From Dehalococcoidia bacterium (GTDB lineage: Bacteria > Chloroflexota > Dehalococcoidia > Tepidiformales > Tepidiformaceae): a stretch of DNA of 38,533 bases. Below the pieces are notes generated by a model. The model ran no database searches, was not told where the DNA came from, and saw nothing but the letters and a program-made list of their open reading frames with translations. Below are positions 2-4,474 of this stretch, piece by piece. Made by a program: the position numbers and the translations under genes. How positions within the stretch are numbered: position 1 is the first letter of the stretch; the number at the start of each line of letters is the position of its first letter. The stretch lies in assembly GCA_020432105.1 (NCBI GenBank), contig JAGQGZ010000007.1, forward strand, positions 1 through 38,533, read 5' to 3'.

Positions 2-544
2 CCCGACGTCTTCAACGTCCTCCTCCAGGTCCTTGACGATGGCCGCCTCACCGATGGCCAGGGCCGCATGGTCGACTTCCGCAACGCCATCCTCGTCATG
101 ACCAGCAACCTTGGCAGCCAGTACATCGTTGAACCCGGCCTCGACCAGCAGACCGTGCACGATCGCGTGATGGCCGCTGTCCAGGGCCACTTTCGTCCTG
201 AATTCCTTAACCGCGTCGACGACATCATCGTCTTCACTCAGCTCACCGAGGCCCACCTCCTCAGCATCGTCGACATTCAGCTGGAACGCGTCGTCAAGCG
301 ACTCGCCGACCGCCGCATCACGCTTGAGATTTCAACCGAGGCGAAGCAGGCACTCGCCCGGCAGGGCTACGACCCGCTGTACGGTGCTCGCCCGCTCAAG
401 CGTGTCATCCAGACCGAAGTCCTCGACCGCCTGGCTATGGAGATCCTCGAAGGCCGCCTCCATGAAGGCACCGTCGCCGCCGTTGACTACGACGGCCAAC
501 GGTTCGTCTTTCGGGAGGTCCTTGTGGGCGAAGCGGTCGCCTAA
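2..544 (+). CDS. clpB: ClpB/ClpA-type AAA+ chaperone, C-terminal part (5' truncated by window)
   Basis: Open from the window edge, giving 180 C-terminal residues. It starts just after the Walker B region of the second AAA+ module ([22 protein letters not shown]), continues through the sensor-1 segment ([10 protein letters not shown]) and the conserved [15 protein letters not shown] arginine-finger region. It ends with the D2 small domain, including the sensor-2 motif [10 protein letters not shown]. This signature belongs to ClpB and ClpA/ClpC-type Hsp100 ATPases, which thread aggregated or tagged proteins through a hexameric pore in the cytoplasm. The C-terminus ([18 protein letters not shown]) looks like ClpB, with no ClpP-binding loop visible in the part present; the discriminating middle domain is outside the window. 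Its stop codon interlocks with that of the convergent sigma factor gene (positions 541-544). The family is certain; ClpB rather than ClpC is likely. Confidence 0.9.
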
Positions 545-1170
545 GCCACCGCACAGAGTTCGCGTAGCCGCGTGAGGGCCCGGGCTTGCCGGGCCTTCAC
601 TGCGTCCACCGTCGTGTTCAGGGCCGCCGCCGTCTCCTCCAGGTTCAACCCGTGCACGAACCGCAGCGTCACCACCTCGGCCTGGCTCCCCGGCAACTGC
701 TCAACCGCCCTCAGTAGATCCAGCATCTCTGCCGAAAGCTGATCCTCCACGGGACGGTCGTAGGCTTCGAGAGAAAGGTGCGGCGGCCGCCGGAACCAGC
801 GCCGGCGGTGGCTCGCAACCACGTTTCGCGCGATCCCGAAGAGCCACGCTCGCGGCGGCAGGCCCCGGTCTTCGTAGGTGCCGGCATGTCTCCAGGCCTC
901 CTCGAATACCTCGCCCGTGATGTCCTCAGCCGTCTCCGGGTCGCCCATCCGTGACCGCACATACCGGAAGATCGCCGGCATCTCCGCCTCAAACAGCGAC
1001 GACCAGGCATCCGGGTCCCGTTCCTGTAGGGCCCTGGCCGGAACCCGGGTGACAGGTTCCGCCGCCGGGAAGCTGTCGAGTGCAGCAAGCACCCATCCCA
1101 GCTTCTGCAGCAGACGCTCGATCGGTGAACCCGGGAGCCACGGCGTGTCGAACGGTATCGTGCCGCTCAA
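541..1170 (-). CDS. ECF-type RNA polymerase sigma factor
   Basis: This 209-residue protein has the two-domain layout of extracytoplasmic-function sigma factors. Region 2 lies at about residues 57-125 ([26 protein letters not shown], then [19 protein letters not shown]) and region 4 at about 150-205 ([41 protein letters not shown], a helix-turn-helix for the -35 element). About 50 extra residues precede region 2. The start is a TTG overlapping the stop of the upstream gene (TTGA). A GGGAGG ribosome-binding site lies 6 nt upstream, inside that gene, so the two are translationally coupled. It is the last gene of a five-gene minus-strand operon. By family knowledge it should be held inactive by the membrane protein encoded just upstream and direct transcription of its own operon; that role is inference. 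Family call is very secure. Confidence 0.92.
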
Positions 1171-2003
1171 CTGCCACCTCCCCCGGAGTCATCGTCAGCA
1201 TCGTCACTGTGGGTCTCGCGTTTGACTTCCGGGTCGATCAGGCCCTTCTCCACATCGGCTTTGAACTTCACCGTCGTGGTTCCCGACTCAAACCGAACCT
1301 CGATGTCCTCGCCCACACCCTCGACTATCTCCACGTCCCAGCCGCTTGCTGGCTGTGTCGAGACCACTTCCAGGAGCACGCCCGCCCGGCGAAGCGTCAC
1401 CGTCCCTGCTTCCAGCGCGCCGAACGTCTGCAGCCCCGCGGCGGTCGTTGAGATCGGTGTTGCCGGCGGTGTGCCATCCGGGGTCGCTGATGCACCGGGT
1501 GTCCCCGCGCCCGCGACTTCCTCAGTCGCCGATGCCGTGGGCTCGGGCGTCTCAGCACCTGGCGTGGGCGACGCGTCGCCAGCAGTCTCCCCGCCGTCAC
1601 TTGCTGTGCCCCGGGCCGGGTTCAGGTTGCGCACGACATTTACGACAATTTCTGTCGCGTTCCCCGCATCTCGTGCCGCATCGGCAGGGGTGTATCCCGT
1701 GGCCGCACTTCCCGCGCCAAGTCCCACGAGCAACACAGCGCCCGCAGCCAGCCGCTGCATTGCCGGCGTCGCCAGCCATGGGGGCAAGAGCCCTGCGAAC
1801 CCACGCGGTCGTCCTCCGCGTTCCAGGAAAGCTTCGAATCGACCGCGCATCTGGCGCGTCGCTCCCGTCGAGGGCCCTCTAGGGGTCAGCCGTGGCAGCA
1901 ACTGCGAGTATCGCAGCGCCTCGCGCTCAGCATCCGTCCTCGGCGCGGTTCGTCCCCCCAGCACCTCCTCAAGGTGGTCGGGCCGGAACGGATCAGCCGG
2001 CAC
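1167..2003 (-). CDS. Putative one-TM anti-sigma factor with acidic C-terminal tail
   Basis: 278 residues, GTG start. I do not recognise a named domain. The N-terminal ~80 residues are cytoplasm-like and charged (DPFRPDHLEEVLGG, DAEREALRYSQLLPRL). One membrane segment follows at about 83-103, then a long low-complexity Ala/Thr/Pro/Glu linker (about 120-185), a compact folded-looking segment (about 186-255, GVLLEVVSTQPASGWDVEIVEG and DIEVRFESGTTTVKFK) and an acidic/glycine tail ([12 protein letters not shown]). A single-TM protein translationally coupled to an ECF sigma factor is the classic anti-sigma arrangement, so that is the working call. No zinc-binding HxxxCxxC motif is visible, so it is not a ZAS-type anti-sigma. 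The start overlaps the end of the heme-protein gene by 11 bp. Its acidic tail echoes the Asp-rich first gene of the operon. Confidence 0.6.
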   Translation of the reverse strand: MPADPFRPDHLEEVLGGRTAPRTDAEREALRYSQLLPRLTPRGPSTGATRQMRGRFEAFLERGGRPRGFAGLLPPWLATPAMQRLAAGAVLLVGLGAGSAATGYTPADAARDAGNATEIVVNVVRNLNPARGTASDGGETAGDASPTPGAETPEPTASATEEVAGAGTPGASATPDGTPPATPISTTAAGLQTFGALEAGTVTLRRAGVLLEVVSTQPASGWDVEIVEGVGEDIEVRFESGTTTVKFKADVEKGLIDPEVKRETHSDDADDDSGGGGS

Positions 2004-2652
2004 GGGTTTCCGCCTGCGCCCGGGATCGGCTCGGACGTACGTACGTTAGCCGCGTCGTGAGTGCCCCCGCGAGCAAAGCGAACGTCACCACGTACATGCC
2101 TGCTACCCACACTTCCCCGCTATCGCTCCCCATTTGCACCCCGTGCCACAACGCGGCCACGTAGGCCAACAGTGACGTGAGGTGGATCGTTCGCCACATC
2201 CTCATCCCAATCCGGTTTCGGAACCAGAACGAGAACGAAACGAGAGCAAACATGTACAGCGCGATCGTCCCCAGCCCGGCCAGCGCTGGCTCATAGTACG
2301 AAGCGAACGGCACGGCAATGTCGATCAGGCCGAACGAGGTGAATCCGTCCGGAATCAGCAGGAGCGCGTGCCCCGCCCCGAGCGCCAGTCCCGTGAGGGC
2401 CAACGCCTGGTGCCAGGCAAGCAGGCGGGCCCTGCCCACGAAACCGTCCAGCCACGCCGATGACATCAGGAGGCCGGTCACCAGCGAACCCCACACCGCC
2501 AAATACGCGGCCAGCCCGGCCGCACGCGATGCATACCAGGCCCCGTGACCGCCGGCATCAGGAAACAGGTCATACCCCAACTGTCCAACAAGTGCGGCCC
2601 CACCCGCCATGCCCAGCAGGGCCGCAATCGCAAGGGCCATAGGTACCTTCAT
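1993..2652 (-). CDS. Ferric-reductase-like transmembrane heme protein
   Basis: About 219 residues from ATG 2652, which overlaps the upstream stop as TGATG; a GTG one codon earlier is possible. It is a polytopic membrane protein with six hydrophobic segments. Two helices carry the paired histidines typical of the ferric-reductase/cytochrome-b-like superfamily: H82 and H96 in LLAWHQALALTGLALGAGHALLL, and H158 and H171 in the IHLTSLLAYVAALWHG segment (numbered from the preceding GTG). These would ligate two b-type hemes across the membrane. No FAD/NAD-binding domain follows, as in MsrQ/YedZ-like and other membrane-only members, so electrons must come from or go to a partner. It lies between a small membrane protein and the anti-sigma-like protein in one operon, suggesting a redox or iron-linked function for the regulated system. 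The substrate cannot be told from sequence. Confidence 0.8.
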   Translation of the reverse strand: MKVPMALAIAALLGMAGGAALVGQLGYDLFPDAGGHGAWYASRAAGLAAYLAVWGSLVTGLLMSSAWLDGFVGRARLLAWHQALALTGLALGAGHALLLIPDGFTSFGLIDIAVPFASYYEPALAGLGTIALYMFALVSFSFWFRNRIGMRMWRTIHLTSLLAYVAALWHGVQMGSDSGEVWVAGMYVVTFALLAGALTTRLTYVRPSRSRAQAETRAG

Positions 2653-2897
2653 CACGAACCCCTCGAGACAGCCCGGCGTGGTACCGGCCTCGTCGGGACG
2701 CGCCCCTGGCTGGCCGGTTCGGCTGTCAACCGTGACTGCACGGCCGCATCCGTCGTCCCCGGCGAAAGGCCCGCGGCGTCCGGCGTCGACGAACTGGCGA
2801 TCTGCAACCAGATCGCCAGGAACGCAATAACGCTCCCCAGGACCACGCCGAGCCGTGTACCCGGGAAACGAATTCCGCGGCGTCGCTTAGTCGTCAT
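2652..2897 (-). CDS. Small single-TM membrane protein, unknown function
   Basis: 81 residues starting at ATG 2897 inside the end of the Asp/His-rich gene (8-11 bp overlap); ATG 2900 is also possible. It has a very basic N-terminus (MTTKRRRGIRFPGTR), one hydrophobic helix (LGVVLGSVIAFLAIWLQIA, about 16-34) and a hydrophilic Ser/Thr/Pro/Arg-rich tail of about 45 residues. The positive-inside rule puts the tail outside the cell. The reading frame is open much further upstream but only through low-complexity Thr/Met residues read out of frame from the GAY repeat, so the short start is preferred. Overlaps on both sides support a real, translationally coupled gene. I do not recognise a family; an accessory subunit for the heme protein is a guess. 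Confidence 0.6.
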   Translation of the reverse strand: MTTKRRRGIRFPGTRLGVVLGSVIAFLAIWLQIASSSTPDAAGLSPGTTDAAVQSRLTAEPASQGRVPTRPVPRRAVSRGS

Positions 2898-3285
2898 CAT
2901 CGTCCCGGTCGTCACCGCGATGGTGATCGTCGTCGTCGTCGTGGTCATCGCCATCCCGATCGTCGTCGTCATCGTGGCCATCGCCATGGTGATCGTCGTC
3001 GTCATCATCGTGGCTGTCGTCGTCCCAATCGTCGTCGTCGTGGCCGTCGTCATCCCAGTCGTCGTCGTCCCAATCGTCGTCCCAATCGGCACTCGCCGCC
3101 GGCAGGTCGAACTGCGAACTCACCAGGTCGCTGCCAACGGCATCCCGCGTCGACGATTCAGCGACGTCGCCCTGCCCTTCGGAGTCTCCCCCGAGCACGC
3201 CCTGGTCCATCGCTACCGCACCTACAGCCCCTGCCGATAGCACCGTCGCGACCAGTGCAGCCCCCAACGAAGTGACTCTGTTCAT
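2887..3285 (-). CDS. Exported Asp/His-rich low-complexity protein
   Basis: 132 residues. Residues 1-27 look like a signal peptide (NRVTSLGAALVATVLSAGAVGAVA). A short linker follows, and from about residue 67 to the end the protein is almost entirely Asp with interspersed His (8), Trp (4) and Gly. It is organised as imperfect repeats such as DWDDDWDDDD, GHDDDDWDDD and SHDDDDDDHH. Such composition is expected to bind divalent or trivalent metals (Ca, Fe, Cu, Zn) outside the membrane, but no known domain is recognised. TGAGGGAG (about 3298-3305) lies 12 nt upstream of the ATG. It is the first gene of the ECF sigma operon and ends inside the next gene. Because the antisense frames of the repeat are also open, ORF calling here is tricky; signal peptide, ribosome-binding site and overlap favour this frame. 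Confidence 0.7.
   Translation of the reverse strand: MNRVTSLGAALVATVLSAGAVGAVAMDQGVLGGDSEGQGDVAESSTRDAVGSDLVSSQFDLPAASADWDDDWDDDDWDDDGHDDDDWDDDSHDDDDDDHHGDGHDDDDDRDGDDHDDDDDHHRGDDRDDDDD
2893..3085. repeat. GAY trinucleotide-type repeat tract (GTC/ATC on plus strand)
   Basis: Nearly uninterrupted GTC/ATC/GTG triplets on the plus strand (GAC/GAT/CAC on the minus strand), encoding the Asp/His stretch of the minus-strand protein. It is an imperfect microsatellite-like tract that could change length by slippage in units of three bases without breaking the frame. It also leaves all antisense frames open, creating spurious hydrophobic Val/Ile ORFs on the plus strand. Confidence 0.75.
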
Positions 3286-3326
3286 GGCTCTTGTGTTCTC
3301 CCTCAGGTTGTGATGGAAAGCACATG

Positions 3327-3355
3327 GTCATCTCGGCCCGAAAAGAGTCGTTCCC
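3327..3355 (-). promoter_or_regulatory. Possible ECF-type promoter for the sigma operon
   Basis: On the minus strand a GGGAAC box (3355-3350) resembles the AAC-containing -35 element of many ECF sigma factors. It lies about 65 nt upstream of the first ATG of the operon, in the 240-bp divergent spacer. The region about 17 nt downstream (GAGATGAC) is not a convincing consensus -10, so this is a weak candidate for autoregulation by the operon's own sigma factor. Confidence 0.25.
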
Positions 3356-3526
3356 TTTCCGAAAATCTTCCCAGCCCCAAAGTGGCCGTTGCCGGTAGAT
3401 GCCCGGTCGCTGGAGAAGGTGCCTGTCCACACCGAACGTGTCACGCCGCGAGGCCCTCTGCCAACGCTGTTGGATCGCTCGCTTTACGCTTGGGAAATAC
3501 CCGTGCCGCATCGCCGTTCCATACTC

Positions 3527-4474
3527 ATGTCAATGCGACCCGCACCGCTCGCTATCGCCCTTGCCGGCACGTTGCTCTTGCTCGTCACCGCCTGCGCACC
3601 CGACGACTCCGGTGCTCGCAGTGCTGTTTCCATCGCCACCGCGACGCCGGTCGAAACGCCCACGCCATTGCCCACACCTTCCCCAACTCCGACGCCGGTT
3701 CCCCCGAGGGACTCGCCGGGCTGTACCACGCGCCTCGCCCTCGCCCGCCAGATGGCACAGGACATCGAGGTCGCGCTCGAAGGCTACGAGGCCGAATGGG
3801 GATTCGCCTTCATCGACGTCGCCTGCAAGGGCACTGTCTCAATTCACCCCGAATACTCCCAGTACGCAGCCTCTGCCGGGAAGATCGTCAGCGTGATCGC
3901 GGTCCTCCAGGCCGTTCAGCGTGGGGACCTACCGCTCGAAGAGGTCGATCAGTCGGTGATCCAGATCCTCACCCTGAGCCTCGACGAGCCGGCAGACTAC
4001 ATCGAGACCTTCCTTGAGCCAGGTGCGCTCAACGCCGTGCTCGACCAGGCAGGCACCCTCAGCGCCCGGATCGACACGACCTGGCGCGAGACCAATATCT
4101 CGGCCACCGACCTTGCCCGTCTCTGGGCCGCGCTCGTCAATGGCCAGCTCCTCAACGAGGAACTCACCGCCTACCTGCTGAAATACACGCGCGAGACGGT
4201 CATCCCGGAGGGATTCGAAACTTTCCCGGATAGCGATTTCGAACTTGACGGCTACCGGTATGGGCAAAAGGCCGGCTACTTCGTCTCCGATGGCGTCCCT
4301 TACTTCTTCGTCGGCGCCGGCTACCTCAACCACGAAGCGACCGGCGACTACTTCATCCCCGTGATCGTCATCGAGACTGAGATCGAAGACCTGCTCGATC
4401 CCCGGCGGTTCCTCGTCTTCCCGGTTGTCGTCGACTACGTCGAGCAAATGGTCGCAACTGGAGAATCCCGATGA
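3527..4474 (+). CDS. Lipoprotein with class A beta-lactamase-like serine hydrolase domain
   Basis: 315 residues from ATG 3527. The frame is open further upstream, but this start directly precedes a lipoprotein signal peptide (MRPAPLAIALAGTLLLLVTAC, lipid-modified Cys about residue 23). A Thr/Pro-rich linker (about 38-62) follows, then a serine-hydrolase fold. S116-A-G-K119 fits the SxxK nucleophile motif and K248-A-G250 the KTG-like triad. The segment TNISATDLARLW is typical of the class A beta-lactamase/transpeptidase-like family (beta-lactamase2). It should be anchored outside the membrane and act on peptidoglycan or related amides/esters. The canonical SDN and the Glu of the omega loop are not evident, so true beta-lactamase activity is doubtful; an esterase or D,D-peptidase-like role is more likely. 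It is transcribed divergently from the sigma operon. Confidence 0.75.
   Translation: MSMRPAPLAIALAGTLLLLVTACAPDDSGARSAVSIATATPVETPTPLPTPSPTPTPVPPRDSPGCTTRLALARQMAQDIEVALEGYEAEWGFAFIDVACKGTVSIHPEYSQYAASAGKIVSVIAVLQAVQRGDLPLEEVDQSVIQILTLSLDEPADYIETFLEPGALNAVLDQAGTLSARIDTTWRETNISATDLARLWAALVNGQLLNEELTAYLLKYTRETVIPEGFETFPDSDFELDGYRYGQKAGYFVSDGVPYFFVGAGYLNHEATGDYFIPVIVIETEIEDLLDPRRFLVFPVVVDYVEQMVATGESR

Follow-up and report, generated by a model that had tools for sequence, protein, structure and literature searches.

The operon, its sigma pair and its promoter

Inspection of the open reading frames (ORFs) in the window, that is, the whole 38,533-nt stretch of Dehalococcoidia DNA that was analysed, showed five of them on the minus strand, running from position 3285 to position 541 and overlapping at every junction (Table 1). 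In the 5′ to 3′ direction they code for an exported Asp/His-rich protein, a protein with one transmembrane segment (one-TM protein), a heme protein (FRD), an anti-sigma-like protein and an ECF sigma factor. The Asp/His gene ends with a stop codon at 2889-2887; its overlap with the one-TM ORF is 11 bp if the latter starts at the ATG at 2897, or 14 bp if it starts at the ATG at 2900. The one-TM and FRD ORFs overlap by 1 bp (FRD starting at the ATG at 2652) or 4 bp (GTG at 2655), those of FRD and the anti-sigma by 11 bp, and those of the anti-sigma and sigma factors by 4 bp, with a TTG start. The original prediction had placed a five-gene operon with overlapping junctions at this site; all five ORFs were present, and recomputation returned an overlap at each junction. 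It had also proposed that the genes are made as one unit; this is supported, and the unit is conserved in relatives. The operon is a conserved MsrQ-like electron-transfer operon. A divergent exported beta-lactamase-like protein is encoded at 3389-4474 (PF13354, E = 5.9e-12); it was not kept beside the operon in the relatives seen.

Table 1. Location of the operon features in the window
Feature	Position	Strand	Remarks
ECF-type promoter CGACTC-N17-CCATGTG, upstream of the Asp/His gene	3321..3350	(-)	One mismatch to YGACWC-N17-CGATGTR
Asp/His-rich exported protein, 132 aa; N-terminal signal/anchor, acidic tail	2887..3285	(-)	
One-TM tether protein with C-terminal tag, 81 aa (ATG 2897) or 82 aa (ATG 2900)	2652..2897	(-)	
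C-terminal tag Ser-Arg-Gly-Ser; proposed ApbE flavinylation site, terminal Ser	2655..2666	(-)	Motif comparison
FRD, six-TM bis-heme ferric-reductase/MsrQ-like protein; His 82, 96, 158, 171	1993..2652	(-)	PF01794 below cut-off, conserved His
Anti-sigma-like one-TM protein; Thr/Pro-rich linker, extracytoplasmic C-terminal domain, acidic end	1167..2003	(-)	Adjoins sigma in homologues
ECF sigma factor	541..1170	(-)	Pfam/NCBIfam

The FRD scored 22.3 bits against PF01794, under the curated cut-off of 28 bits. Its four His residues were conserved in 95–98% of 57 homologues, and were present in all ten rows of a second alignment. As a six-TM, PF01794-type protein with four heme-ligand His residues, FRD is MsrQ-like, with a Pfam score below the gathering cut-off. 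The bis-heme His pattern first noticed in the sequence is thus conserved among homologues, and the electron movement across the membrane proposed at the same time fits the bis-heme family.

The sigma factor was recognized as a clear ECF factor, as originally predicted, by its matches to PF04542 (E = 1.5e-15) and PF04545 (1.5e-11). The nearest NCBIfam model was that of the BldN family (TIGR02952; E = 3.9e-30), for which the 105 bits obtained fell short of the 206 bits required for membership. The anti-sigma protein had no Pfam or NCBIfam match, and its translation (1167-2003) contains no Cys, so the zinc anti-sigma motif HxxxCxxC is absent; its homologues adjoin a sigma factor in relatives.

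The upstream regions of the Asp/His genes were found to have in common the sequence CGACTC or TGACAC, 17 nt of spacer and CGATGT[GA]. The same promoter (YGACWC-N17-CGATGTR) lies ahead of an anti-sigma/sigma operon that is detached from the other genes in the Tepidiforma-like genomes. In one such genome assembled as a single contig (G012), the pattern occurred exactly three times, ahead of two Asp/His genes and of the sigma operon. A few matches lay inside genes and look like chance hits; a reversed control pattern gave zero matches in nine genomes. In the window, the promoter listed in Table 1 was the sole match with at most one mismatch, against a random expectation of 0.46 over the full length of the window. 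A GGAAC-type ECF -35 motif was not found as a shared element of the upstream regions. Since the Asp/His genes and the detached sigma operon share a promoter, the self-regulation that had been proposed for the system is supported. Other candidate members of the sigma regulon, with the promoter element upstream (L279, L289), include an exported protein that looks of the CAP/SCP type by eye (G032:C1:929925); a further candidate is an exported 267-aa protein (G010:C18:17268), also preceded by the element.

Gene order in relatives and the acidic exported protein

The host genome (G000) is an assembly of 399 contigs that is 81% complete. The family to which it belongs resembles that of Tepidiforma (Dehalococcoidia) and has single-contig, Tepidiforma-like members of about 2.7 Mb. 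FRD orthologues with 49–62% identity were found in 13 relatives. Some 15 relatives in the family had retained the Asp/His, one-TM and FRD genes as a group, with the sigma gene downstream in seven others, and the order is conserved beyond chance. The predicted link of the heme protein with the Asp/His protein is real. The complete order apbE, Asp/His, one-TM, FRD, anti-sigma, sigma was visible at four loci (L048, L052, L053, L054). At another (L045), the core and the sigma gene were present, with an uncalled gap between FRD and sigma and with apbE a few kb upstream (L124), while at L049 and L051 the FRD, anti-sigma and sigma genes lay at contig ends. Four Tepidiforma-like loci (L043, L044, L046, L047) contained the core without the sigma pair, which was detached (L104-L107). 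Finally, a paralogous core of Asp/His, one-TM and FRD genes was found divergent from a two-component system (L057, L058, L060 and others). The sigma factor is thus not obligate: paralogous copies go with a two-component system, and the core stands alone elsewhere. Of the five-gene order expected in relatives, the part formed by the three core genes was conserved, but the sigma pair was not always attached. The host has a second tagged one-TM and FRD pair (contig C199, about 2700-3677; L056), with the tag ISRGS and no adjoining Asp/His gene or regulators.

The exported Asp-rich protein of the window contains the 8 His and 4 Trp residues that had been counted originally. When a strict filter was applied, acidic exported proteins were found upstream of the tagged gene at 44 of the 145 Chloroflexota loci with enough upstream sequence. 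In Herpetosiphon and its relatives, these proteins have PepSY domains (PF03413, E = 9e-19) ahead of the acidic tail; their putative homology to the window protein is based on position, a similar N-terminal anchor and the acidic tail. His was not constant in the acidic protein, which in some relatives has RDDD repeats, so that metal binding is only a possibility. In the sensor kinases adjoining the paralogous cores, the extracytoplasmic loop contained runs of Asp, Glu and His (10–17 of 20 residues in eight of the nine), as compared with 0–8 per 20 residues in the other kinases seen, and several anti-sigma proteins ended in acidic runs. Sensors and effector thus share an acidic/His element, and it may be that they bind the same cation. 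At three Tepidiforma-like loci (L043, L044, L046), two Asp/His genes stood in tandem, and a separate copy of the promoter preceded each; the repeats were RDDD in some of these genes and DDH in others.

The C-terminal tag and its association with ApbE

The one-TM gene had been counted correctly among the five, but its role had been passed over, although its tag and its association with ApbE make it the best functional clue of the operon. The one-TM proteins of about 140 relatives consist of a flexible tether with a C-terminal tag, [S/T]-x-[A/G/S]-S, and all those of the family that were examined end in [S/T]-[R/K]-[G/A/S]-S. No significant Pfam domain was found in the tagged proteins. Among the 765 genes predicted in the loci, the strict tag ([ST][RK][AGS]S-stop) was present in 39, every one of them linked to FRD; these encode one-TM proteins and, once, an FRD with a C-terminal extension of its own (L079). 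Four codons (TCC, TCG, TCA and AGC) are used for the final Ser and eight for the R/K position; this mixture indicates that it is the protein that is constrained, rather than a ribosome-binding site. An origin of SRGS as a by-product of a Shine-Dalgarno sequence was ruled out by the codon mix, the variable spacing, and the presence of the tag on the FRD C-terminus and on proteins with no FRD following.

Over the phylum, the tags form a series that starts with SRGS and TRAS in Dehalococcoidia, passes TRSSR in Chloroflexia (Herpetosiphon aurantiacus DSM 785, L266, among them) and TTQSGK, and ends with TGSS, STGSS, TGAS and SGAS, the last four on Gly-rich or other flexible tails. Canonical tags were SGAS (L182) and TGAS (L263, L270); TGAS was the tag in some Anaerolineae, where TGSS also occurred. 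The motif recognized by ApbE is D-x-x-[S/T]-G-A-[S/T], with the last residue flavinylated (PMC12052999), and the shape of the tag is that of its [S/T]GA[S/T] part. In the SRGS tag of the window, Arg replaces Gly and the upstream Asp of the canonical motif is absent; loss of this Asp had a minor effect only in one study quoted in PMC12052999. An engineered seven-residue ApbE tag works best at a protein terminus (PMC12052999). The main argument for proposing the tag as a flavinylation site is that the tags grade into the exact ApbE motif, and we infer that the tag is probably an ApbE substrate carrying electrons from the hemes. Judging by the positive charges N-terminal of the TM segment, 128 of 138 tagged tethers were predicted to have the C-terminus outside. 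The idea of the acidic protein as an electrostatic partner of basic tags was rejected, as it was seen at 37 of 121 loci with basic tags versus 7 of 24 with non-basic tags.

In most relatives, an apbE gene (PF02424) was either the upstream neighbour of the core or lay between the tagged gene and FRD, at several loci with overlapping frames (L081, L130, L132, L136 and others). Trios of tagged protein, ApbE and FRD were found across Chloroflexota, including H. aurantiacus DSM 785, Chloroflexus and Roseiflexus. In a sample of 400 Chloroflexota genomes, which are not independent, ApbE was present in 197 of the 206 FRD-positive but in 45 of the 194 FRD-negative genomes (Fisher p 4e-56, a value that ignores relatedness). 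Within the host family it was present in 23 of 26 FRD-positive and none of 12 FRD-negative genomes; the three FRD-positive genomes lacking it (G000, G024, G034) are 72–81% complete. No ApbE was found in the window or in the host's 81% complete assembly. Where the core had been lost from its usual site, ApbE was retained, and FRD paralogues, most of those seen having tagged partners, were present elsewhere (L109-L113, L117, L122). An apparent anti-sigma remnant was retained at one such site (L113).

Candidate ApbE substrates other than the tag were considered. Domain searches found no FMN_bind in the host genome or most relatives, and it was lacking in 150 of the 242 ApbE-positive Chloroflexota genomes, so it was rejected as the substrate. 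Two further substrates are named in PMC8238504, DUF2271 and DUF3570; they were likewise rejected, being almost absent (1 of 241 and 0 of 231 genomes, respectively). FRD was present in 141 of the 150 ApbE-positive genomes lacking FMN_bind; in these 141 'orphan' genomes of the sample, a single system offers an obvious candidate for the substrate.

A signal peptide was absent from 147 of 153 ApbEs of the group. With the tethers predicted C-outside, this implies that flavinylation would occur before export, or that the topology prediction is wrong. These ApbEs keep the catalytic His, while Asp285 is replaced by Glu in most and Thr289 by Lys in nearly all; within these genomes, the ApbEs whose genes adjoin FMN_bind genes differ from them at 285 and 289. 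In NqrC, a substrate Lys assists catalysis (PMC12052999); that the group's own Lys might stand in for it is only an idea. Lys289 was rejected as the cause of the tag Arg, being common to the enzymes of tags with and without Arg. In some genomes of the family there was a second ApbE type (L118, L119, L120, L121), likewise with no clear signal peptide; it accompanied an FMN_bind protein with one TM segment (..VSGATESS.. or a similar sequence) and another membrane protein, NqrB/RnfD-like by eye.

A candidate tethered flavin and the alternatives

The reading we favour, with a probability of about 0.6, is that the operon encodes an autoregulated MsrQ-like electron-transfer module in which ApbE attaches FMN to the terminal Ser of the tether's Ser/Thr-x-Ala/Gly/Ser-Ser end, as a 'flavin on a string'. 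The flavin carrier would be a disordered one-TM tether, not a folded FMN_bind domain. Electrons would pass from quinol or a cytosolic reductase to the two FRD hemes, to the tethered FMN, and then to an acceptor outside the membrane. The Asp/His-rich protein (elsewhere PepSY plus acidic tail) might bind this acceptor, or a cation, near the membrane, and the anti-sigma, with its acidic extracytoplasmic end, would release the sigma factor for transcription of the Asp/His gene and of its own operon. Scarcely less probable is a hitherto unrecognised class of such substrates in wide use in Chloroflexota: one-TM proteins with a disordered tail, carrying FMN on a C-terminal [S/T]-x-[A/G/S]-S, modified by signal-peptide-less ApbEs with Glu285 (usual) and Lys289 (almost always), and acting as swinging flavin arms for MsrQ-like hemes, with a dedicated ECF sigma regulon in Tepidiforma relatives.

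The lack of export signals in the group ApbEs would also fit a flavinylated tag on a cytosolic tail, with the tethered FMN feeding the FRD hemes in place of a NOX-type fused reductase domain. No NAD(P)H/FAD domain was found fused to the window's FRD by domain search, and Klebsiella is known to have an ApbE in the cytosol whose substrate is cytosolic too (PMC12052999). However, most tethers were predicted C-outside, and their Pro/Thr/Ala-rich tails are typical of exported linkers; we consider this arrangement unlikely. Slightly less likely still is a role of the tag in docking or assembly, as a signal for FRD or for the membrane or cell wall, with ApbE modifying another, unrecognised protein. 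The tag on one FRD's own C-terminus would agree with this, as would tagged proteins in the family whose FRD cluster has no adjoining ApbE, but it would leave aside the shading of the tags into the exact ApbE motif (TGAS, SGAS), the position of ApbE between the tagged gene and FRD at most loci of the phylum, and the scarcity of the known substrates noted above.

The model of the original prediction, in which a secreted Asp/His metal-binding polymer and the heme protein serve metal reduction or sensing and the small ORF is incidental, appears about as improbable as a docking signal. It draws on the occurrence, across the phylum, of an acidic exported protein encoded upstream of the core and on the matching D/E/H runs of the kinases; yet of the small ORF and the acidic protein the former is the more constant, His varies in the acidic protein, and no metal transporter was seen adjoining the operon. 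The favoured reading, FMN on an extracytosolic tether, has as its strongest new claim that a C-terminal flavin tag would be the substrate of 'orphan' ApbEs in Chloroflexota, which is well supported by genomics. In the survey of Meheust et al. 2021 (PMC8238504), no substrate was known for the ApbE of about 4% of the genomes that have one, which were left as 'orphan', and the candidate tether could explain what many of these flavin-attaching enzymes act on. If so, it would be the simplest natural flavin carrier, and an ECF sigma regulon would be tied to transmembrane electron transfer.

The MsrQ-like flavinylation systems described earlier (PMC8238504) also combine a PF01794-type six-TM bis-heme protein, a clustered apbE (here in relatives) and predicted extracytosolic electron transfer. 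Those clusters, however, are mainly actinobacterial and typically contain a folded FMN_bind substrate, whereas here the candidate substrate is a tether that has one TM segment and ends in the motif, and the Asp/His or PepSY-acidic exported protein is an extra part. Further, the method of that study depended on the prediction of a signal peptide or lipidation site for a target gene, and the present ApbEs lack these features. The MsrPQ methionine sulfoxide reductase likewise has a bis-heme membrane subunit, of the MsrQ type, to which no reductase domain is fused, but no MsrP gene was seen adjoining the operon, and the tether and acidic protein are additional here. A short C-terminal motif was sufficient for flavinylation by ApbE in a synthetic flavin tag (PMC12052999); the present tag is natural, lies on a membrane tether and, in the host, has a diverged motif. 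The regulatory pair recalls BldN-type ECF sigma factors with a one-TM anti-sigma in overall sigma similarity (TIGR02952), but this sigma factor lies far below the family cut-off and is dedicated to an electron-transfer operon. No description of ApbE flavinylation at a C-terminal serine, or of a heme protein paired with a C-terminal flavin-tag tether, was found in the literature. At several loci (L070, L074, L081), the FRD gene is followed by a gene for a membrane protein of about 165–169 aa (GLPAHALVVHAAVVLVPL), which may be another partner.
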